Source of the DNA: a virus
Strand: one strand, 5' to 3'
DNA: 41,165 nt
IMG/VR virus record: IMGVR_UViG_3300017963_000429
Coordinates: 1 to 41,165 of that record
A model generated the notes under the pieces. It had not been told where the DNA came from. It did no database searches and saw only the letters and a list, made by a program, of their open reading frames with translations. Position 1 is the stretch's first letter, and every line of letters begins with the position of its first letter. Positions 1-41,165 of the stretch are shown one piece after another. Made by a program: the position numbers and the translations under genes.

Positions 1-86
1 CTTTTCTGTATGCAAACTCCGATTTACGATATGAGCTTTGTTATACGCCCCGGCCTATATGGCACGGGCTGTATAGAGGCGGCCAT
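1..86. other. Short non-coding stretch upstream of terS
   Basis: I see no gene here. It contains CTATATGG and TATAGAGG words that resemble the CTCTATA-G-rich repeats at 41088-41129, on the opposite strand in part. If the map is circular, this stretch is the right edge of one packaging control region. No convincing promoter was found. Confidence 0.4.
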
Positions 87-671
87 ATGAGCGGCGCGGC
101 AAAGCGACAGCCGGTAAGCCTACAAGTTTACCAGGGGAATAAAAACAAGCTGAGCGAGGCCGAGCTTGCCGCACGGGGCGACGCCGAGATCACAATGGGC
201 GATTTGAATTTTACCGCGCCCGCCGACATTAAAAAAGATAAACTGGCCTTAAAGAAGTGGCGCGAGGTCGTTAAGATTTACCGCGACGCTCAGCTTACCG
301 TGGTGAGCAATACCGACACGGGCGCGATCGCTCGCTACTGTATTTTGTATTCAGAGTATTGGCAATTATCCGAACAGCGCCGGAAAATTTCGGCTTTCGA
401 TTTCCCCGACGACGACACCAACGAGATTTTAGCTATTACCGACGACGATTACAGCCGGGCGCGCTCGCGGCGGCTTTATAATATCATGGAATATTTTACA
501 CGCCTCGACGGCCTCTTAAAACTTGACGACAAAATAAACCGCAAGCTTAAAGCGATCCTCGACATTGAGGATCGTATTTTCCTTAATCCGGCGGCCAAGG
601 TACGCACGTTACCGATCAAACGCAAGCCAAAAGAGCCCGACGGGATCGGCGATCTCGGTTTTGACGTATGA
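87..671 (+). CDS. terS: Terminase small subunit (P27 family)
   Basis: 194 aa. This is the DNA-recognition subunit of the packaging motor; it selects phage DNA and delivers it to the large subunit. The N-terminal region (VSLQVYQGNKNKLSEAE) and the length fit P27-type small terminases, which are found with HK97-like heads. The position directly before the large subunit, with a 4-nt ATGA overlap, supports the call. The start ATG follows AGGCGGCC. In a circular map the gene lies just after the tandem repeat array at 40788-41051, which may contain its binding sites (inference). Confidence 0.85.
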   Translation: MSGAAKRQPVSLQVYQGNKNKLSEAELAARGDAEITMGDLNFTAPADIKKDKLALKKWREVVKIYRDAQLTVVSNTDTGAIARYCILYSEYWQLSEQRRKISAFDFPDDDTNEILAITDDDYSRARSRRLYNIMEYFTRLDGLLKLDDKINRKLKAILDIEDRIFLNPAAKVRTLPIKRKPKEPDGIGDLGFDV

Positions 672-2422
672 GTAAAAAGCTAAAAGAACTGATCCAATAT
701 TGCCGCGATTGTATCGCCGGTAAAATAAACTGCTGTACTAAACATAAGCAAGCGTGTATACGATTTTTAAAAGACTACGAGGCCACGAAAAAACGGGGCT
801 CTAAATTTATTTACAAATGGGATCGCGTTGAACACGTTATAAAATGGGCGGCATTGTTTAAGCATACCAAAGGAATATTAACCGGCAAGCCGATCGATTT
901 GGATATATCGCAAGTGTTTATAGTCGCCAATATATACGGCTTTTATTACAGCGCTACCGGCTACCGCCGCTTTCAAAAATTCTATTACCAGGTAGGCCGC
1001 AAAAATGCTAAAAGCCAATTACTCGCGGTTCTACTTTCGTACGAGCTTATGGTTTTTAGCGGCGGTCTTGCCGAGGTTTATTGCGCGGCCACAAAGCGCG
1101 AGCAAAGCCAGATCGTTTATAATGAAATGAAAGCGATACTCCAGGGCTGTAAATTATTAAATGGAAAATGGAAAGAGAGCTACCATAAAATTAACCATTT
1201 AAAAACCGGATCATTTTGCCGCGCTATGAGCAAAGAAGATCGGAAACTGGGCGACGGTCTTAACCCTCAGGCCGCTTGTATCGACGAGTACCACGCCCAC
1301 CCCACTACCGAGATTTACGACATAATCGAAAGCGGTATGGGCGCTCGCCCCGAGCCGCTTTTAGGGATCATAACTACCGCCGGGTTTGATCTAAATAACC
1401 CGTGTTACACTACTGAATATAAAATGATTTCCCGCGTACTTGATCCCCACGACGACACCGATTTAGAAAGCGTCTTTTGTGATATACACGAATTGGAAAT
1501 TAACACGACGAGCGAGGATATAATTTTAGCCGACGGCAAAAAAGTAGCGCCGGGCGATTTACTCGACGATCCTTTTAACGAGGATAATTGGATCAAGGCT
1601 AATCCGATCGTATGTAGCTATTCCGAGGGCGTAGACTTTTTAAGAAAACGCGCTGAAGAGGCCAAGGCCGCCCCGGACAAGCTCAGAAATTTTTATACAA
1701 AGCATATGAATATTTGGGTTAACCAACGCGACGCGGGCTATATGCCGCTCTTACGTTGGTCGGCTTGCCGTGGAGAATTGCCAGATTTAAACGGCGCGGC
1801 TTGTTTTGTCGGGCTCGATTTATCGGCCAAAAACGACTTAACGAGCGCCGGGCTCGTTTTCCCATTAAATGGAGTATACGCCGTAATTGGACATAGCTTT
1901 ATGCCTGAAAATACGTTTTCTGCAAAAATGAAAACCGACTTAGTACCGTACGATCTATGGAAAAATGAAGGTTGGATCACCCTCACGAAAGGCGCGGTAG
2001 TGGATTATAAAGTTGTTGTGGATTGGGTAAAAAAGACTATATTACGGCTAAATGGAGTTATTCAGGAATTTTGCGTCGATCCGTGGGGCTCGATCCAAAT
2101 CGCTAACGATTTGATAGCCGAGGGCTACGAGGTCGTAAATATTGTACAAGGGATCAAGACACTAAGCGAACCGACTAAGGATTTTAGAAACCAGGTTTAT
2201 GAGAAAAATTTAGTACACGACGGAAACCCGGTAATAGCGTGGGCTATCGGTAACGCGGTAGTCGATATAGTGGATCGGAATATGAACATACTTTTAAATA
2301 AGAGTAAGTCTACAGAAAGGATCGATCCAATCGCGGCAATAATAAACGGCTATGTACGCGCCATGATCGCCGACACGCTCGGCGGCGTTTATGGTAGCCG
2401 GGGAATGAGGAGTCTAGGTTGA
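668..2422 (+). CDS. terL: Terminase large subunit
   Basis: 584 aa, the usual length. This is the ATPase and nuclease that pumps and cuts DNA at the portal. The Walker A motif GRKNAKS is at about residues 110-116 and Walker B ACIDEYHAH at about 203-211 (catalytic D206/E207). The C-terminal RNase H-like nuclease domain begins around CFVGLDLSAKNDLTS with its first acidic residue. A Cys-rich N-terminus (YCRDCIAGKINCCTKH) is seen, as in many terminases of this group. The gene is translationally coupled to both neighbours by 4-nt overlaps. Confidence 0.95.
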   Translation: MSKKLKELIQYCRDCIAGKINCCTKHKQACIRFLKDYEATKKRGSKFIYKWDRVEHVIKWAALFKHTKGILTGKPIDLDISQVFIVANIYGFYYSATGYRRFQKFYYQVGRKNAKSQLLAVLLSYELMVFSGGLAEVYCAATKREQSQIVYNEMKAILQGCKLLNGKWKESYHKINHLKTGSFCRAMSKEDRKLGDGLNPQAACIDEYHAHPTTEIYDIIESGMGARPEPLLGIITTAGFDLNNPCYTTEYKMISRVLDPHDDTDLESVFCDIHELEINTTSEDIILADGKKVAPGDLLDDPFNEDNWIKANPIVCSYSEGVDFLRKRAEEAKAAPDKLRNFYTKHMNIWVNQRDAGYMPLLRWSACRGELPDLNGAACFVGLDLSAKNDLTSAGLVFPLNGVYAVIGHSFMPENTFSAKMKTDLVPYDLWKNEGWITLTKGAVVDYKVVVDWVKKTILRLNGVIQEFCVDPWGSIQIANDLIAEGYEVVNIVQGIKTLSEPTKDFRNQVYEKNLVHDGNPVIAWAIGNAVVDIVDRNMNILLNKSKSTERIDPIAAIINGYVRAMIADTLGGVYGSRGMRSLG

Positions 2423-31004: not shown

Positions 31005-31187
31005 ATGCCACAAGATAAGATCAGGGTGTACGGCGATATATCCGACGGCCACGAAAAAGCCTTTTTATTTATAAAGGGCGTTTACGGCTGTCGGAGTAAC
31101 GGCGACGCTATGGAAAAAATGATCGAAATTGTTACGCCGCTCGCCAAGAAAGAGGCGGCCAAAGCTAAAAGCGTAAAACGTGCGTAG
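31005..31187 (+). CDS. Small unknown early protein
   Basis: 60 aa, with a GAAAGGGTATAAA ribosome site. The sequence IRVYGDISDGHEKAFLFIK and a Lys/Ala-rich C-terminal helix suggest a small helical protein. It overlaps the next gene by 8 nt in another frame. No family is recognised. Confidence 0.6.
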   Translation: MPQDKIRVYGDISDGHEKAFLFIKGVYGCRSNGDAMEKMIEIVTPLAKKEAAKAKSVKRA

Positions 31188-34222: not shown

Positions 34223-34223
34223 G

Positions 34224-34264
34224 CCTTTTTTCCTATAAAAAGGATCGAGCCCCAAACTTTTTTT
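34224..34264 (+). terminator. Possible weak terminator after the primase gene
   Basis: CCTTTTT (34224-34230) and AAAAAGG (34237-34243) form a 7-bp hairpin with a 6-nt loop. The nearest T run (34258-34264) is 14 nt after the stem, which is too far for a standard terminator. A second imperfect hairpin lies at 34271-34295. Together they may slow or end transcription before the next promoter. Confidence 0.35.
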
Positions 34265-34315
34265 AAAAATCGCCGTTTTTAGCTCAAAAACCGCGAAAAT
34301 AATTACGAAAATCCC

Positions 34316-34344
34316 TTGAACATAAGCGCTTATGATAGTATAAT
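34316..34344 (+). promoter_or_regulatory. Strong promoter with palindromic operator in the spacer
   Basis: TTGAAC (34316-34321) and a perfect TATAAT (34339-34344) are 17 bp apart. The spacer holds the perfect 14-bp palindrome CATAAGCGCTTATG (34321-34334), placed so that a dimeric protein bound there would block RNA polymerase. The transcript should start near 34351 and carry the leader and the chain of small genes. Confidence 0.85.
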
Positions 34345-34637
34345 TATAGTATGAACTTCATTATTAAAAACTTCTCGACTTTCGTAACGCTCTTAAGCCT
34401 TGCGAGAATCGCGATTGAAAATTTACTCAACTAAGGACGGTAACGAATAGACGACTAAACTAATCGACGGGAAAGGGGAGAGAAATTCCTAGCCCGAAAA
34501 TCCGCGAACCCGTACCGGATACGAAAACAGAGAGAGCTAAAAAAGCCACTTCGGGAGAGTCGGAAACCGCTACTAAGTTTCCTTGACAAGTCTTTGAGAA
34601 TTAAGACGAAACTCTAACACTTAACAACGAGGTAAAC
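34345..34637 (+). ncRNA. Structured ~290-nt leader RNA, no supported gene
   Basis: The stretch between the promoter and the first small gene is purine-rich. It has several short hairpins: TTGCGA/TCGCGA (34400-34414), CGTA/TACG (34511-34523), GGAAAC/GTTTCC (34562-34582, extended by GTC/GAC) and GTCTT/AAGAC (34590-34607). The last two sit shortly before the ribosome site. A 27-codon open frame (34351-34434) begins at the predicted transcript start but lacks a ribosome site. The stretch may act as a leader, attenuator or separate small RNA. Confidence 0.5.
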
Positions 34638-34796
34638 ATGGCAACACTACCCGAAAAAATCGAGGCGTGGGTAAAAAGAGAATTTAACGCTAAGTACGTA
34701 CGGCAAGTTACTAACGACTTGATCGACGTAGCCGCCGGAAACCGCGAGGGCAACAAGTTTGAAAAAGAGGCCGTCGATTTCATTATTAACGGATAA
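34638..34796 (+). CDS. Small unknown early protein
   Basis: 52 aa (MATLPEKIEAWVKREFNAKY...). The ribosome site AACGAGGTAAAC is the same as in three following genes, which supports a true start. It is a mostly helical, charged protein ending in FIING. No family is recognised. It is the first gene after the leader and has no pseudoknot element in front of it. Confidence 0.65.
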   Translation: MATLPEKIEAWVKREFNAKYVRQVTNDLIDVAAGNREGNKFEKEAVDFIING

Positions 34797-34817
34797 CCAA
34801 TAACAGCGAGGTACAAA

Positions 34818-35021
34818 ATGATATTACCGGAAAATGGTTTTAAAAAATACCGCGAGGCGAAACGCTTTGCACAAGGCAAGGCCAACGCCGCGCCGGTTTT
34901 CTTTATTCAAAACACCGGCAATAAACAATACTATTGCCTTTGGAATATACCCGCCGATTGGAAAGGCGATAACGGCGTACTCAAAGCGCCGTTAAAGCTA
35001 CTCGACGTAGTATACTCATAA
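34818..35021 (+). CDS. Small unknown early protein
   Basis: 67 aa with a GCGAGGTACAAA ribosome site. It begins with a basic helix (KKYREAKRFAQGKANA), then a beta stretch (PVFFIQNTGNKQYYCLWNI). No family is recognised. Its stop codon abuts the first pseudoknot element. Confidence 0.6.
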   Translation: MILPENGFKKYREAKRFAQGKANAAPVFFIQNTGNKQYYCLWNIPADWKGDNGVLKAPLKLLDVVYS

Positions 35022-35086
35022 GCCCCACGTCGCCCGCCTCGGCGACATTAAATAAAGCGAGGCGCGAAAGTAGCACGGGGCTACAC
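35022..35086 (+). promoter_or_regulatory. Intergenic pseudoknot RNA element, copy 1
   Basis: Order of parts: GCCCC (35022-35026); stem 1 GTCGC/GCGAC; stem 2 CGCCTCG/CGAGGCG (3' strand 35058-35064), which pairs the loop of stem 1 with downstream sequence; A-rich linker ATTAAATAAAG; constant CGAAA; hairpin GTAGC-ACGGG-GCTAC. The 5' GCCCC can pair with the GGGG of that hairpin. The element starts one base after the stop of the upstream gene and ends 32 nt before the next ATG. Confidence 0.88.
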
Positions 35087-35118
35087 TTTAACCAATCACA
35101 ATTAACAACGAGGTAAAC

Positions 35119-35613
35119 ATGGCAACAATAAATACAGAACATGGCGAAATGATAAAGACAGCCGAGGGCTACGAGTACCGGGCTTGCAATATCGTTAAGG
35201 TTAACAGCCGTTGGGGCGGGCATAAGGATTTTACGCCTAACCAATCCCATTGGAAAATCAGCCGCCAAAGTGAACACGTTAAAGTTTATTTTAACGATAG
35301 CTACCCGGCGGCCAGTACCTTAAAAGAGGCTTGTGATACCATAGATCGGGCTTTCCGTAGCCACGAGAAAAACGTAGCGCGGTGTTTGGAAATGAAAAGG
35401 CTTAGGCCAATACATAACCTTATAAACGACGCCGAAAACGACTTAGACTTACCGGCTGAGTATGTTACGCGACATATGCGGCACGTATATACTAAGGCTA
35501 ACGTATTAGAATTTTTAGCGCTCGAAAAATACGCAAGTCTTAAAGACCGGCTCGACGAGGTTTTAGCCGAGCTTGAAAAATGGCAAGGTTTAAGTACTAA
35601 GTACACCGGATAA
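35119..35613 (+). CDS. Unknown early protein
   Basis: 164 aa with the shared AACGAGGTAAACATGGCA start context. Residues 1-75 are beta-rich (YEYRACNIVKVNSRWGG, HVKVYFNDSYPAASTL); residues 80-160 are helical (ACDTIDRAFRSHEKNVARCL, LKDRLDEVLAELEKWQGL). No membrane segment and no known family. Confidence 0.65.
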   Translation: MATINTEHGEMIKTAEGYEYRACNIVKVNSRWGGHKDFTPNQSHWKISRQSEHVKVYFNDSYPAASTLKEACDTIDRAFRSHEKNVARCLEMKRLRPIHNLINDAENDLDLPAEYVTRHMRHVYTKANVLEFLALEKYASLKDRLDEVLAELEKWQGLSTKYTG

Positions 35614-35614
35614 C

Positions 35615-35681
35615 GCCCCACGACGCCCGCCCCGGCGTCACTATAAATAAATCGGGGCGCGAAAGTAGCACGGGGCTACAC
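35615..35681 (+). promoter_or_regulatory. Intergenic pseudoknot RNA element, copy 2
   Basis: Same architecture as the first copy, with compensatory changes: stem 1 is GACGC/GCGTC and stem 2 is CGCCCCG/CGGGGCG. The linker is ACTATAAATAAAT, two bases longer. The 5' GCCCCAC and 3' CGAAAGTAGCACGGGGCTAC are unchanged. It begins one base after the upstream TAA and ends 24 nt before the next ATG. Confidence 0.88.
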
Positions 35682-35705
35682 TTTTAACTTAACAACGAGG
35701 TAAAC

Positions 35706-35966
35706 ATGGCAGTAAAAGAATACACAATAAATAAAGAGATTAGAGGCCGCGCCGCTTTAAAGGCTATCAACGTAAAGTTAGCGCCGGGTAGAATGATCAG
35801 GCTGAGCGTCGAAGAAGATTTATTTATATGTAACTACGACGGCGTTTTAGCCTTAGAGCCCTCGACTTACAAAGGCAAAGTCGAAAGCCGGATCATTAAC
35901 AGCAACGCCGAAACTAATAAAGGCGTAGGCGTGTTTATTATTACACGCTCTTTTACAGTAGCTTAA
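35706..35966 (+). CDS. Small unknown early protein
   Basis: 86 aa, AACGAGGTAAACATGGCA start context. It is beta-rich (AINVKLAPGRMIRLSVEEDL, GVFIITRSFTVA) and has no cysteine cluster apart from one Cys. No family is recognised. It is framed by pseudoknot elements on both sides. Confidence 0.62.
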   Translation: MAVKEYTINKEIRGRAALKAINVKLAPGRMIRLSVEEDLFICNYDGVLALEPSTYKGKVESRIINSNAETNKGVGVFIITRSFTVA

Positions 35967-35967
35967 C

Positions 35968-36032
35968 GCCCCACGTCGCCCGCCTCGGCGACATAAAATA
36001 AAGCGAGGCGCGAAAGTAGCACGGGGCTACAC
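35968..36032 (+). promoter_or_regulatory. Intergenic pseudoknot RNA element, copy 3
   Basis: Stem 1 GTCGC/GCGAC, stem 2 CGCCTCG/CGAGGCG, linker ATAAAATAAAG. It is identical over 65 nt to the fourth copy and differs from the first by one linker base. It starts one base after the upstream stop and ends 33 nt before the next ATG. Confidence 0.88.
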
Positions 36033-36065
36033 TTTCAACCAATCACAATTAACAACGAGGTAAAC

Positions 36066-36338
36066 ATGGCAATTAATTGGAACGAAATGAAAACAACAAA
36101 AGACGAGTACGGCATTATCGCCAAGATCGCCGAGCGGGCGACTAAGACCGTTAAGCGTGATCATATGTCTATTATGATGGACATAGAGGTAGTACATAAC
36201 AGCGTAGGCTTGCGGCTTTCCGATTTACTGGCCGCGCCTAATTTTGATTTTCTGCACGACGTTTGCGGTATTATCTCAAACCTTGATCGGTATACCGGAG
36301 AGCTTTTAAATTGCTTTTTGCCCCGGTACTCGGCCTAG
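36066..36338 (+). CDS. Small unknown early protein
   Basis: 90 aa, AACGAGGTAAACATGGCA start context. It is helical in the first half (EMKTTKDEYGIIAKIAERAT) and mixed later (DFLHDVCGIISNLDRYTGEL). No family is recognised. The last G of its TAG stop is also the first base of the following pseudoknot element. Confidence 0.62.
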   Translation: MAINWNEMKTTKDEYGIIAKIAERATKTVKRDHMSIMMDIEVVHNSVGLRLSDLLAAPNFDFLHDVCGIISNLDRYTGELLNCFLPRYSA

Positions 36339-36402
36339 CCCCACGTCGCCCGCCTCGGCGACATAAAATAAAGCGAGGCGCGAAAGTAGCACGGGGCTAC
36401 AC
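36338..36402 (+). promoter_or_regulatory. Intergenic pseudoknot RNA element, copy 4
   Basis: Identical in sequence to the third copy. Its first base is the last base of the upstream stop codon, so a terminating ribosome would sit on its 5' edge. The spacer to the next ATG is 34 nt and contains a GAAAGGATCAAAC ribosome site instead of the AACGAGG type. Confidence 0.88.
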
Positions 36403-36436
36403 TATACACCAATCACAATTAACGAAAGGATCAAAC

Positions 36437-37072
36437 ATGGCAACAATAGAAATAAGAAACGAGGCTAAAAGAGGTTGCGGCTACCGCAAGCCCGGCGGCC
36501 TCTATATGGTAACCGAGGGCGTTAGCGTCGCCGTACCGTGTTTACCCGTGCCTTTGCACGTTTGCCCGGTATGTTATCAAGGCGTAAAGGCTACACGCTC
36601 TTTTCAGTGGATCGAGCCCGGTAGGCTCTTGCTCGATCTCGTAGAAAAGAATACGCCCGCTTGCCCTCAGTGTATGGGGCTTACCCAGGTTTGCGCTATG
36701 GCCTCTACGCTCAAAGGTAAGGCCGGGCTTATGTGGATCGGCGACAAGTATTATACGCCCGAGTCTTTTAGAAAAGAGGCCGCCCAAATGGGGATCAGTA
36801 AGCGTATACCAAACGTGCCGAAAGACTTTAAGATCGGAGAGCATTGGGTTTTTCTCGGACACCGTAAGGCTATCGTCCAACACGTCGGACACGTTGGTAG
36901 CCAAGAATTGAAAGACGAGTATAAGCCCGGTATCTTTACCGCTTTTAAGCCCACGGCGATCGAGTACGTAGTTAAGCCCGACGACAGCGTAGAAAAGCTC
37001 GACAGCCTCGCCAAGCGCGGTATAACGCTCGTAGACGTCAAACCCATTAAAGAGCCCGAGCTTGATCTTTAA
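36437..37072 (+). CDS. Unknown phage protein with zinc-ribbon-like cysteines
   Basis: 211 aa from ATG at 36437; the frame is open upstream to 36311, but that would run through the pseudoknot element and has no ribosome site. The N-terminus has RGCGYRKPGGLYMV, a phrase I recall from a widespread uncharacterised phage family. Two CxxC pairs (C43/C46, C76/C79) suggest a zinc ribbon. The C-terminal half (KDFKIGEHWVFLGHRKAIV) is beta-rich. Function unknown. Confidence 0.68.
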   Translation: MATIEIRNEAKRGCGYRKPGGLYMVTEGVSVAVPCLPVPLHVCPVCYQGVKATRSFQWIEPGRLLLDLVEKNTPACPQCMGLTQVCAMASTLKGKAGLMWIGDKYYTPESFRKEAAQMGISKRIPNVPKDFKIGEHWVFLGHRKAIVQHVGHVGSQELKDEYKPGIFTAFKPTAIEYVVKPDDSVEKLDSLAKRGITLVDVKPIKEPELDL

Positions 37073-37137
37073 GCCCCACGACGCCCGCCCCGGCGTCACT
37101 AAATAACACGGGGCGCGAAAGTAGCACGGGGCTACAC
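37073..37137 (+). promoter_or_regulatory. Intergenic pseudoknot RNA element, copy 5
   Basis: Stem 1 GACGC/GCGTC, stem 2 CGCCCCG/CGGGGCG, linker ACTAAATAACA. It directly follows the TAA of the upstream gene and ends 31 nt before the next ATG. The change of linker bases contrasts with the constancy of both ends. Confidence 0.88.
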
Positions 37138-37168
37138 TTTTCTTATTCACTTAGCGAAAGGATCAAAC

Positions 37169-37519
37169 ATGGCATTATTTATAAAAAGAAAAGAGCATAC
37201 CATTAACGCCACTAAAGCCGAGCTATTAGAGGCTTTAGAAAATTTAAACCACGGCGTAGAAAATAATTTTTTTCCCGGTTGGATGACTAAATTAGCTAGG
37301 GAAACGATCGCCAAAGCCACGACACCGATCAAGGCCGAGCCGGTAAAAGTTAAGCGTTGCGCGGCTTGCCGCAACGGTGAACACGACAATTACGACGACG
37401 ACGTACGGCTTACCGTTGTAAGCGATCCGGCTACCGGTAAGCTCGTACACCGCGCTTACTTATGCGGCGAACACCGGCAAGCGTACGACTACGACGGCTT
37501 TAAGATTACCATTAAATAG
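37169..37519 (+). CDS. Small unknown protein with possible zinc site
   Basis: 116 aa, GAAAGGATCAAACATGGCA start context. The N-terminal half is helical (ATKAELLEALENLNHGVENN). The C-terminal half has CAACRNGEH and CGEHRQAYDYDG, a C-x2-C...C-x2-H arrangement that could hold zinc. No family is recognised. The stop TAG overlaps the next pseudoknot element by one base. Confidence 0.62.
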   Translation: MALFIKRKEHTINATKAELLEALENLNHGVENNFFPGWMTKLARETIAKATTPIKAEPVKVKRCAACRNGEHDNYDDDVRLTVVSDPATGKLVHRAYLCGEHRQAYDYDGFKITIK

Positions 37520-37583
37520 CCCCACGCCGCCCGCCCCGGCGGCATTAAATAAATCGGGGCGCGAAAGTAGCACGGGGCTACAC
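37519..37583 (+). promoter_or_regulatory. Intergenic pseudoknot RNA element, copy 6
   Basis: Stem 1 is GCCGC/GCGGC, a third version of the covarying pair (C-G where other copies have T-A or A-T). Stem 2 is CGCCCCG/CGGGGCG and the linker ATTAAATAAAT. It begins on the last base of the upstream TAG and ends 33 nt before the next ATG. Confidence 0.88.
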
Positions 37584-37616
37584 CTTTTTTATTCACTTAA
37601 CCCGAAAGGATCAAAC

Positions 37617-37955
37617 ATGGCAACAATAGAAAAAACCAGAAAAGCGATCGGCACGTACACGCTTGAAAAGCCCGAGGTTTTCCAAAAGCTTTACGAGTGT
37701 GCGGCGTGGTATACCGATATAGAAGTACAGCCGGGCGTTTACCCGGTTACTACCGACGGGTACTGGCTTTTCGTAGAGTTACCGGGCGTTATTGTTTCGG
37801 ATAACTTTCAAAGCCTTTTCGCGGGTATGCCGATCGGCGACGCTTACGACAGAAAGCAAAACGCCGGTAAGCCCGCTACCTATTGGATACAGACACAAGA
37901 GTACGCCGTTAAATGTAACCCACGGTATAACTTAACCGGCGAGGTAAAAGTATGA
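37617..37955 (+). CDS. Unknown early protein
   Basis: 112 aa, GAAAGGATCAAACATGGCA start context. Aromatic-rich with mixed alpha/beta features (VFQKLYECAAWYTDIEVQPG, YWLFVELPGVIVSDNFQSLF). No family is recognised. Its stop overlaps the next ATG (ATGA), so the following small gene is coupled to it without a pseudoknot in between. Confidence 0.62.
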   Translation: MATIEKTRKAIGTYTLEKPEVFQKLYECAAWYTDIEVQPGVYPVTTDGYWLFVELPGVIVSDNFQSLFAGMPIGDAYDRKQNAGKPATYWIQTQEYAVKCNPRYNLTGEVKV

Positions 37956-38107
37956 GCGGCTTAACTATGCTAGAGCTTAACTATATGATCGAAAAAGTTA
38001 AGACGGCTAAAGACATATCCGAGGCCGAGCGGCGCGAGCGGCTTAAGACTTACCGCGCTATGCGGCGCGAGCTAAGAAAGAAGATCGCCGAAATGCTTAA
38101 CAGCTAA
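37952..38107 (+). CDS. Small helical unknown protein
   Basis: 51 aa, overlapping the upstream gene by 4 nt and preceded by GAGGTAAAAGT. It is almost entirely helical and charged (MLELNYMIEKVKTAK, SEAERRERLKTYRAMRRELR), perhaps a short coiled coil. No family is recognised. It is followed one base later by the last pseudoknot element. Confidence 0.62.
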   Translation: MSGLTMLELNYMIEKVKTAKDISEAERRERLKTYRAMRRELRKKIAEMLNS

Positions 38108-38108
38108 A

Positions 38109-38173
38109 GCCCCACGACGCCCGCCCGAGCGTCAATAAACAATGTCGGGCGCGAAAGTAGCACGGGGCTACAC
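38109..38173 (+). promoter_or_regulatory. Intergenic pseudoknot RNA element, copy 7
   Basis: The most divergent copy and the most informative: stem 1 GACGC/GCGTC and stem 2 CGCCCGA/TCGGGCG. Two stem-2 pairs change together (C-G to G-C and G-C to A-T), fixing stem 1 at 5 bp, stem 2 at 7 bp and a single unpaired C between them. The linker is AATAAACAATG. The ends are unchanged. It ends 34 nt before the next ATG. Confidence 0.88.
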
Positions 38174-38207
38174 TATACATCAATAACTTAACCAGAAAGG
38201 ATCGCTT

Positions 38208-38408
38208 ATGCCCGATAACATAAGAGCGCTTAACAAAGCGCAACAAACCCAATATTTGATACTGGCTGATTTTCTAGCCGATAAATTTACGCTCGACGCT
38301 ACCGACTATTGTATGTTAGCCGAGATCGCCGAGCATTTCACGTTAACGGCTCAAACGAGCTTAGCTGAGTACAGCGTTAACAATACCCTAAACCGCCACG
38401 GGGGTTAA
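38208..38408 (+). CDS. Small helical unknown protein
   Basis: 66 aa with an AGAAAGGATCGCTT ribosome site. It is helical throughout (NKAQQTQYLILADFLADKF, DYCMLAEIAEHFTLTAQTSL). No family is recognised. It is the last gene preceded by a pseudoknot element. Confidence 0.6.
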   Translation: MPDNIRALNKAQQTQYLILADFLADKFTLDATDYCMLAEIAEHFTLTAQTSLAEYSVNNTLNRHGG

Positions 38409-38412
38409 TAAT

Positions 38413-38586
38413 ATGACATGGACACCCGAAACAATGGGGCGTAAGGGCGGCCAAAAGTCACGCCGTACCCTTACACCCGAACAGGCTAAAAATATGGTCA
38501 AAAAGCGCGAGGAAAAACGCAAGCGCGAGGCTATATTAAAAGAGAAAGCAAAAAACCGATCACGCTCACCCAGGGGGCGCGTATGA
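38413..38586 (+). CDS. Small basic unknown protein
   Basis: 57 aa (MTWTPETMGRKGGQKSRRTL...), strongly basic with a Lys/Arg/Glu helix (VKKREEKRKREAILKEKAK). It starts 4 nt after the previous stop, and its stop overlaps the next ATG by 2 bases (GTATGA). Nucleic-acid binding is possible from its charge. No family is recognised. Confidence 0.58.
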   Translation: MTWTPETMGRKGGQKSRRTLTPEQAKNMVKKREEKRKREAILKEKAKNRSRSPRGRV

Positions 38587-38933
38587 TTGTAGTATACATA
38601 GCAAGCCCGTATACGTGGGGCGACGCCGGTAAAAACGTCGGTATACATATGAAAGTAGCAAACGATCTGATCGGGCGCGGCTTTTGTGTTATCGCGCCTT
38701 TGCTTTTTCATTTTCTGCATATCGTCTATCCGAGAGACTGGGCAACGTGGATCAAAGTCGATCTTGAATTGCTCAGCCGTGCCGACGTGGTTTTAAGAGT
38801 ACCGGGCAAGAGCGCCGGGGCTGATATAGAAACCGAAGAGGCCGAAAAGCTCGGTATACCCGTCGTACACGATCTCGACGAGTTGGGCGTATGGGTATTT
38901 CAACAAGACACCAAAACCGGGCGGCGGGCGTGA
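38583..38933 (+). CDS. Nucleoside 2-deoxyribosyltransferase-like protein (DUF4406/DUF1937)
   Basis: 116 aa. YIASPYTWGDAGKNV at the N-terminus, PLLFHFLHIVYPRDWATWI in the middle, and ADVVLRVPGKSAGADIETEE near the end are the pattern of phage DUF4406-type proteins in the nucleoside deoxyribosyltransferase fold. Such proteins may act in nucleotide salvage or in handling modified nucleotides. The catalytic role is not proven. It is coupled to the upstream basic protein gene. Confidence 0.78.
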   Translation: MIVVYIASPYTWGDAGKNVGIHMKVANDLIGRGFCVIAPLLFHFLHIVYPRDWATWIKVDLELLSRADVVLRVPGKSAGADIETEEAEKLGIPVVHDLDELGVWVFQQDTKTGRRA

Positions 38934-39034
38934 GTTGGGAAGAGGTAAAACTTTTTCAGGCGAGGGCGCGCCGCCATAATATTAACGCTACTGATTTAAC
39001 AAAACTTAATTTAACCAGAAAGGAAAATAAGATC

Positions 39035-39589
39035 ATGGCAAATTTTGAAACGGCGCTACAACACGCGCTACAGAACGAGGGCGGCTACGCTAACGATCCT
39101 CACGATCCGGGGCGGGAAACTTACGCCGGTATATCGCGGCGGTTTTGGCCTCATTGGGACGGGTGGAAAGCGATCGACAAACATAAGCCGCTCGGTACTA
39201 ATCAAATGGTACACGAAACCGACGCCGACGTAGCCGAGTTTTACTTTAATACTTTTTGGCTACCGCTTAAGTGTGATAAAATCGCTAACGAGAGCGTAGC
39301 CGAAAGCCTTTTTGATTTCGCGATCAATATAGGCCGTAAGCGCGCTATCCGGGTACTACAGGACACCGTTAATATATACTCAGGTAGAAAGCGGATCAAA
39401 GTAGACGGTATTATAGGCGAGAAAACCTTAGCCGGTATCGAAGCCGCAAGCGCACGATCGCCGAAATTCCCTAACGGCTTTATAAGGTTCCGCATAGATT
39501 GGTATTTTGATCTATGCTATAGCTCGCCGAAAAAGTACCGCTATTTGCGCGGGTGGGTTACCAGGGCGTTAAAGAGCCTCGAAAAATGA
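39035..39589 (+). CDS. Endolysin, GH108 lysozyme with peptidoglycan-binding domain
   Basis: 184 aa from ATG at 39035, chosen for the AGAAAGGAAAATAAGATC ribosome site; the frame is open upstream, including a GTG at 38930. The catalytic EGGY motif (Glu15) in QNEGGYANDPHDPGRETYAG marks glycoside hydrolase family 108. The C-terminal half (SLFDFAINIGRKRAIRVLQD, KVDGIIGEKTLAGIE) is the associated PG-binding domain. There is no signal peptide, so a holin is needed for release. Confidence 0.9.
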   Translation: MANFETALQHALQNEGGYANDPHDPGRETYAGISRRFWPHWDGWKAIDKHKPLGTNQMVHETDADVAEFYFNTFWLPLKCDKIANESVAESLFDFAINIGRKRAIRVLQDTVNIYSGRKRIKVDGIIGEKTLAGIEAASARSPKFPNGFIRFRIDWYFDLCYSSPKKYRYLRGWVTRALKSLEK

Positions 39590-39678
39590 TCGGGGCTTTT
39601 ATCGTACTCGTTTTAATTTGTCTTGCCTTTCTGTATTGCGTTATGTATCTAACGGAAAGGCAAGACGATCACTATTAG
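39586..39678 (+). CDS. Very small membrane protein of the lysis cluster
   Basis: 30 aa: MIGAFIVLVLICLAFLYCVM followed by YLTERQDDHY. One transmembrane helix and a short charged tail. The ATG overlaps the endolysin stop by 4 nt, which indicates coupled translation. It may be a minimal holin or a lysis helper (inference); too short for a family assignment. Confidence 0.6.
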   Translation: MIGAFIVLVLICLAFLYCVMYLTERQDDHY

Positions 39679-39698
39679 CAAGAAAGGAATATATACAT

Positions 39699-39902
39699 AT
39701 GAAATTTTTTAAAACCGTATTAAAAATAGCCTCAATTAAGCCCTTGCGGGAATTGATCTATAAGCTCGTCGTGTATTACAAAAACGATAAGCGCTACGAT
39801 CGCAAGGAAATAATTGATTTATTTTTTACTCTGGCTACCTTTTTCGGCGTGTCGATTACTCACGACAAAATGGAAAACCGGATCACAATAACGTATAATT
39901 AA
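39699..39902 (+). CDS. Small unknown protein of the lysis cluster
   Basis: 67 aa from ATG at 39699, preceded by AGAAAGGAATATATAC; an earlier in-frame start lacks a ribosome site. Basic helical N-terminus (MKFFKTVLKIASIKPLRELI) and a hydrophobic middle (IIDLFFTLATFFGVSI) that is short for a membrane span. It could associate with the membrane. No family is recognised. The lysis terminator follows. Confidence 0.58.
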   Translation: MKFFKTVLKIASIKPLRELIYKLVVYYKNDKRYDRKEIIDLFFTLATFFGVSITHDKMENRITITYN

Positions 39903-39916
39903 AACTCAAAAATAGT

Positions 39917-39964
39917 GCCATATAGAGCCGTGTATATAGCGGTATCTATATGGCCTTTTTTTTT
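39917..39964 (+). terminator. Strong intrinsic terminator of the lysis operon
   Basis: A perfect 10-bp stem, GCCATATAGA (39917-39926) with TCTATATGGC (39945-39954), is followed by C and nine T (39956-39964). The 18-nt loop can form a further CCG/CGG pairing. This is the clearest terminator in the window. Confidence 0.9.
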
Positions 39965-39991
39965 GCCCTTTTTTGAGCAAAAACGGCGATC

Positions 39992-40349
39992 TGTCTTGTT
40001 GTCTTATCTGTCTTATATGCCACAAGACAAAAAAAGCGCCCTTTTTGGCCTAAAAACCCAGGAAAAACGGCTCTGTCTTGTTGTCTTGCGTATATTGCTA
40101 TATCTATACGTGAGAAAAGTTTACTTACATACAATTTTAAACGGCGTTTTTAATTTGGTAAGTGTATGTAAGTAACTCTCTGTATATAGGGGATAGAGCG
40201 AAATACGCAAGACAACAAGACAAATCTTTATAAGCCATTGGTATATATGGCTATTACGCTGTCTTGTCACTATCGGGGCTCATATGACAACAAGACAGAT
40301 CGCCCCATACGTACCAGGATCGCCATATTTGGCCGATCGTGACAAGACA
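39992..40349. repeat. Cluster of TGTCTTG-type repeats in both orientations
   Basis: TGTCTTGTTGTCTTG or close forms occur at 39992-40005, 40074-40088 and, inverted, 40208-40222 (CAAGACAACAAGACA) and 40285-40297. Shorter sites are at 40009-40014, 40023-40029, 40260-40269 (TGTCTTGTCA) and 40340-40349 (TGACAAGACA). The stretch 39965-40411 holds no supported gene. The sites could bind a regulator or a replication initiator; the last lies in a candidate promoter. Confidence 0.75.
40121..40175. repeat. 13-bp perfect inverted repeat
   Basis: TTACTTACATACA (40121-40133) and TGTATGTAAGTAA (40163-40175) are perfect inverse copies separated by 29 bp. No T run follows, so it is not an obvious terminator. 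It lies among the TGTCTTG repeats and could be an operator, an origin element or a structured RNA. Confidence 0.7.
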
Positions 40350-40411: not shown

Positions 40412-40792
40412 ATGTACAGCGCTAAGAGCATATGTAGACGGGTAGGCTGTAACGCCCTCGTAGAAAGGCCGGGCTACTGTGATATACATACGGTATACGA
40501 GCAAGAGCGCTTTAAGCATTTGAAGCGAGCGCCCGACGCCTCGGCCTTTTATAGTGGGGCTAAGTGGACTAAGACGAGCCGAGCCTTTCGTAAGGCTAAC
40601 CCGCTATGCGCTGAGCATAAGCGCGCCGGGATCATTGTTAAGGGCGCTATAGCTGATCATACAATAGAGCGAGCCGAGCTTATGCGGCAAGGGCTCGATC
40701 CCTACGATTGGAAGTATCTACAAAACCTCTGTACGCCATGCCATAATAAGAAACTCAGACAGCGGCAGAACAAAGCGAAAGGTTTTATATGA
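40412..40792 (+). CDS. HNH endonuclease
   Basis: 126 aa. The HNH core is IADHTIERAEL (D82-H83), then N105 and H111, with zinc-binding Cys66 and C107-x2-C110 (LCTPCHNKK). An additional N-terminal cluster (C8, C13, C23, H26) could hold a second zinc. In HK97-like phages an HNH protein encoded next to the terminase is required for packaging cleavage; here terS would follow if the map is circular. The ribosome site is AAGGACAAAACC. Confidence 0.88.
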   Translation: MYSAKSICRRVGCNALVERPGYCDIHTVYEQERFKHLKRAPDASAFYSGAKWTKTSRAFRKANPLCAEHKRAGIIVKGAIADHTIERAELMRQGLDPYDWKYLQNLCTPCHNKKLRQRQNKAKGFI

Positions 40793-41051
40793 GGCCAGAG
40801 AATTGCCAGAGCCCGGCCAGTGACCGGCCAGAGCCCGGCCAGTTAAGCCCCAGTGATCAGCCAGAGCCCGGCCAGTTATTTGCCAGTGACCGGCCAGAGC
40901 CCGGCCAGTGGTCGGCCAGAGAATTGCCAGAGGTAGGCCAGTGGTCGGCCAGTTATTTGCCAGAGGTCGGCCAGTTATTTGCCAGTGGTCGGCCAGTGAA
41001 CGGCCAGAGCCCGGCCAGTGATCAGCCAGTGACCGGCCAGAGAGTTGCCAG
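40788..41051. repeat. Tandem array of 11-bp repeats ending in GCCAG
   Basis: Twenty-three exact 11-bp units run from 40799 to 41051, plus a first unit at 40788-40798 that overlaps the HNH stop codon. All end in CCAG and 22 of the 23 in GCCAG. The first six bases come from a small set: AGCCCG, TGACCG, TGGTCG, TTATTT, TGATCA, AGAATT and a few single variants. Unit length never changes, so the array keeps a face-of-helix spacing. Adjacent to the HNH gene and, in a circular map, terS, it is a good candidate for the terminase recognition site. Confidence 0.92.
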
Positions 41052-41087
41052 ATCAATAAAAGGCTCTTTTTTATTTATTTTAGGGGC

Positions 41088-41129
41088 GTCTATATGGGGG
41101 GCTCTATACAGGGCGGTCTATAAGGGAGG
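41088..41129. repeat. Three tandem 14-bp G-rich repeats
   Basis: GTCTATATGGGGGG (41088-41101), CTCTATACAGGGCG (41102-41115) and GTCTATAAGGGAGG (41116-41129) form three head-to-tail 14-bp units of the type TCTATA-nn-GGG. More G runs follow to 41133. Between 41052 and 41087 there is only an AT-rich stretch. The site may be part of the packaging or cutting region, or may form a G-quadruplex. Confidence 0.7.
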
Positions 41130-41165
41130 GGGGCGATCCATCCTAGAGGGCGACGTAGCGAAGAC

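Follow-up and report, generated by a model that had tools for sequence, protein, structure and literature searches.

The virus record analysed here, a stretch of 41165 bp that is referred to in full as the window, carries in the spacer between its HNH endonuclease gene and cos a strictly periodic array of 24 eleven-base-pair units, best read as an accessory element that the lineage of this phage has acquired. Because close relatives do not possess it, this element looks like an accessory protein-binding array and not like a packaging site of the terminase. By analogy with other phage systems, such an acquired row of phased protein-binding sites would most likely serve the control of late transcription into terS-terL, a role proposed here with less than even confidence. 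The genes of the record include those for TerS, TerL, portal, tape measure, a PolA-type polymerase, a primase, an endolysin and a packaging-type HNH protein. The features discussed below are collected in Table 1.

Table 1. Features of the cos-proximal regions of the window
Feature	Coordinates	Strand	Remarks
Left cos end, CTTTTCTGTATGCAAA	1..16	.	common start of ten relative contigs
Three CTATATG-like repeats, exact 14-bp spacing (55, 69, 83)	55..89	+	left of cos
terS, small terminase subunit	87..671	+	
terL, large terminase subunit	668..2422	+	
HNH endonuclease gene, packaging type, phrog_144	40412..40792	+	stop codon abuts array
Array, 24 eleven-bp units, consensus (A/T)(G/T)NNNN-GCCAG	40788..41051	+	
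Open frame through array, P0001	40789..41163	+	probably not a gene
AT-rich stretch directly 3' of last unit	41052..41082	.	possible promoter -10 or unwinding region
Three CTATATG-like repeats, exact 14-bp spacing (41090, 41104, 41118)	41090..41124	+	right of cos
Right cos-proximal end (..GAC)	41125..41165	.	ends like G002, G005, G008

Structure of the array

The array (40788-41051) spans 264 bp, or 24 x 11 bp with zero indels, a unit number taken from a metagenome assembly and possibly inexact. Of these units, 23 have an unaltered GCCAG core and one has CCCAG. Across the window, the pattern GCCAG-N6-GCCAG with at most one mismatch is matched 24 times against 1.25 expected, a count reached in none of 100 shuffles, and all but one of these 24 matches fall inside the array. 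Information per column ranges from 1.74 to 2.0 bits for the core and from 0.31 to 1.33 bits for the filler. The fillers themselves are drawn from a small repertoire, with AGCCCG occurring five times and TGACCG, TGGTCG and TTATTT three times each; 11 distinct hexamers are found in 23 units, compared with 21 expected if the columns were independent (0/2000 shuffles). The fillers are therefore re-used unit types, rather than random variation. The preliminary description of this DNA had reported an 11-bp repeat of unvarying length whose variable bases come from a limited set, and both the register and the filler counts were reproduced here.

The HNH stop codon is directly adjacent to the first core (TATGAGGCCAG). 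The array and terS lie at opposite ends of the linear record, whilst joining of the cos ends places the array about 200 bp upstream of terS, between the HNH stop and the cos-proximal block, which agrees with the position previously assigned to it on a circular map. Upstream of the HNH gene, the noncoding segment 40176-40411 holds several copies of ACAAGACA/TGTCTTGT, a motif that is also present near the right end of the relative G010.

A blastn search of the array against phages gave no significant match, and the best plasmid match (Serratia, E 5e-3), which comprises five TGACCTGCCAG units, does not convince as a homologue. GC skew indicates no clear origin at the array. A role as RNA structure was rejected, as the fold of the array beats dinucleotide shuffles (z -3.4) but not permutations of unit order (z +0.6), and is weaker than that of filler-column permutations.

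Relatives and the cos region

Relatives were collected by TerL (71-81% identical); among bacterial genomes, the search returned distant TerL matches alone, at about 29%. Five near-full relatives have the gene order of the window, with TerL 73-80% identical and the HNH gene at the right end, and the genes outside a variable region of the right arm (about 34.2-40.2 kb) are mostly common to the window and its relatives. Within this variable region (34223-40200), most genes of the window are without homologues in the five near-full relatives. The spacer from the HNH gene to the end measures 70-210 bp in these five phages versus 373 bp in the window, and their HNH-cos spacers contain no GCCAG array and no 11-bp periodicity above noise. 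The array is therefore an addition in this lineage, and packaging and replication in the family proceed in its absence.

Ten relative contigs and the window begin alike, with CTTTTCTGT and in most cases with CTTTTCTGT-RY-ACAAA; the left end CTTTTCTGTATGCAAA marks the cos end of this phage group. At the right, the window shares a terminal GAC with G002, G005 and G008, and its last bases are similar to those of phi105 just before the phi105 cut. Because the starts are shared with relatives, the GAC right ends are likewise shared and phi105 is resembled, the ends of the record are taken to be physical cos ends, and the record is concluded, on the evidence of sequence, to be a complete linear cos genome from which overhang bases may be missing. 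The order HNH - cos - terS - terL is that of HK97/phi105-type cos regions, to which the array is an addition in this phage, as phi105-type relatives are without an 11-bp array at that place.

The small terminase of HK97 recognises 15 bp of DNA on the terS side of cos, at 15-29 bp from the cut (PMC11331095). By analogy, the conserved left end (1-16) is a candidate TerS site. The array ends 114 bp from the right end of the window and thus lies on the side of the cut opposite to the HK97 site.

A second repeat system, consisting of CTATATG-like sequences at an exact 14-bp spacing, flanks cos on both sides and is found at the left end of most relatives and at the right end of several. Similar copies also occur in an intergenic region further left, and these repeats therefore need not be packaging sites; they are candidates for either packaging or regulatory sites. 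Nevertheless, together with the conserved left end, they are better packaging candidates than the 11-bp array.

Strict 11-bp arrays in other viruses

Scanning IMG/VR for four GCCAG cores 11 bp apart yielded 68 stretches, whilst control scans yielded 96 stretches for four GACCG cores 11 bp apart and 51 for four GCCAG cores 10 bp apart. The notion that GCCAG is a special core was rejected, as the 11-bp stretches of GACCG outnumber those of GCCAG and also lie in initiator genes. The ORFs over both 11-bp sets are dominated by PHROGs replication-initiator families (DnaD-like loaders, O-like and other initiators). No replication match was found among 30 ORFs of the 10-bp GCCAG set, although this contrast is imperfectly matched, with one ORF per locus in the 10-bp set and up to two in the 11-bp sets.

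Examples outside initiator genes are few and were picked by inspection, with no blind count. In L212, a GACCG array is flanked on one side by a late regulator of the sigma-70 region 4 type and on the other by a packaging HNH gene, which is followed by TerL. In L009, a GCCAG array at a contig end follows a phrog_144 HNH gene at a distance of about 310 bp. In L254 and L261, 21-23 nt separate the end of the GACCG array from the -10 box of a promoter that precedes phrog_620 ParB-like genes; L269 carries a GACCG 11-bp array and shares its promoter with L261, with the -10 box again 21-23 nt after the array. In L043 (1541-1614), an 11-bp array of GCCAG follows shortly after a ParA-like gene and is likely to be a phage partition centromere. 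Strict 11-bp arrays elsewhere are thus found overwhelmingly in known kinds of protein-binding DNA, and by this analogy an 11-bp period appears to mark DNA read by a protein on one face. The preliminary description had proposed a protein array on one helix face, and to this extent it gains partial support.

Possible functions of the array

Late-transcription control was chosen as the leading explanation because, for a position upstream of terS-terL, late-activator repeats are the nearest published analogue. At the late promoter of TP901-1, Alt occupies four imperfect direct repeats between -76 and -32 (PMC13123087), each about 11 bp long by our own arithmetic, and in phi13 the deletion of four repeats upstream of the late promoter abolishes promoter activity (PMC13123087). 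In common with these Alt and Ltr late-promoter repeats of Gram-positive phages, and with late-activator sites of the Alt/Ltr/RinA kind, the present array consists of short direct repeats that precede the packaging genes, and once cos is joined it lies directly ahead of the terS-terL operon in the direction of transcription. The exact register, the conserved core and the re-used filler types favour such a role, as do the comparable 11-bp arrays at L212, L009, L254, L261 and L269. The array would act at the level of DNA as a row of sites for a sequence-specific protein which, with the GCCAG cores one helix turn apart, can therefore line one face. A late-gene-type activator (as Alt/Ltr) would bind this row and may help RNA polymerase to start in the AT-rich stretch after the array, from where transcription would read through the joined cos into terS-terL.

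Confidence in this reading is low because a regulator and a promoter consensus are missing. The scan of ORFs, right arm included, brought up no recognisable late regulator, and the gene upstream of the array is HNH; a sigma-70 promoter scan found no consensus match in the AT-rich stretch, which occupies the expected place of a -10 box, ~20 nt on from the array. In contrast to TP901-1 and phi13, there are 24 units here and not the four or so of described late promoters, cos lies between the array and terS, and relatives with the same late genes manage without the array. Furthermore, the arrays at L254, L261, L269 and L212 are few, derive from a pattern scan and have GACCG as their core instead.

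A small basic protein of 60 aa (31005-31187), ribbon-helix-helix-like by eye, is encoded by 5/5 near-full relatives. A model of it as a possible ribbon-helix-helix binder reached a mean pLDDT of 70 and gave no significant fold match, and the protein is also present in relatives without the array.

A second model, which is considered unlikely, holds that a tandem repeat, neutral or selfish, grew by recombination within an unconstrained spacer. This would suit the restriction of the array to one lineage and the differing spacer lengths of relatives, and the 11 re-used filler types point to duplication. However, the core shows 1 substitution in 120 bases, yet fillers differ at up to 6/6 positions, and no change of register occurs across 24 units. 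As mutation alone should strike core and filler equally, neutral expansion is disfavoured.

It is rather doubtful that the array consists of replication iterons, in which case an initiator would bind it and melt the adjoining AT-rich stretch as an (extra) origin, or the array would derive from the initiator gene of another phage. Origin iterons in phage initiator genes have a strict 11-bp period, a short core, few filler types and an AT-rich neighbour, all of which recur here (AT-rich 41052-41082), and strict 11-bp arrays in IMG/VR, GCCAG and GACCG alike, lie mainly in initiator genes, with none in the 10-bp control. Despite this, the array is neither in nor beside an initiator gene, initiator seeds have no match in the window or relatives, and relatives that share the polymerase (63-74% identical) and the primase (73-80%) are without the array.

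Partition centromeres provide a further parallel. The parC centromere of plasmid R1 contains 11-bp direct repeats, phased as they are here, and the GCCAG array near the ParA-like gene of L043 may be compared. Among the ORFs scanned in the window, no ParA/ParM, adaptor or other par genes were recognised.

A more elaborate and quite improbable scenario is that the unusually long, recently gained array of 24 sites ties a protein unrecognisable here to cos and so couples replication or late transcription to packaging, in this lineage only. Candidates for the binder would be a host protein, a protein of a co-resident element or an unannotated phage protein.

The preliminary description had suggested binding by the small terminase and had named absence of the array from close relatives that package normally as a result that would speak against it; such an absence was found here in the five near-full relatives. 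A packaging site, at which the small terminase (or HNH protein) would bind the array as an accessory cosB/cosQ-like element, is now very unlikely, although the array does lie within the cos interval, between HNH and terS, and L009 offers a second HNH-linked GCCAG array. All five near-full relatives, including G005 and G010 (TerS 67% identical), have the same packaging genes in the same HNH-cos-terS-terL order without the array, which is thus not conserved along with the terminase as a cosB-type element would be. What the relatives do share around cos is the left end and the 14-bp repeats, and the TerS site of HK97 lies across the cut from where the array is. Since the relatives are without the array and the family-wide cos repeats are different ones (14-bp CTATATG), the TerS-site reading is not supported.

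Finally, it is highly improbable that the array encodes an 11-residue protein repeat, as part of a small gene that an ATGA overlap would couple to HNH: no stop interrupts the frame 40789-41163 within the array (a probability of about 0.02 by chance in this frame) and its start ATG overlaps the HNH stop, but relatives are without the array, with the downstream frame open in G005 and not in G008 (by eye), and the frame is probably fortuitous because the units do not favour a phase of three (p = 0.21), no homologue of P0001 was found and the frame would need to cross cos to end.

Implications

These comparisons correct a tempting reading of the array as a packaging site and show that a single cos carries two distinct repeat systems, the 11-bp array specific to this lineage and the 14-bp repeats found across the family. 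They also suggest a rule for scanning phage genomes, whereby a strict 11-bp period around a short invariant core tends to be a sign of protein-binding arrays, in origins, late promoters and centromeres, a 10-bp period not being such a sign.
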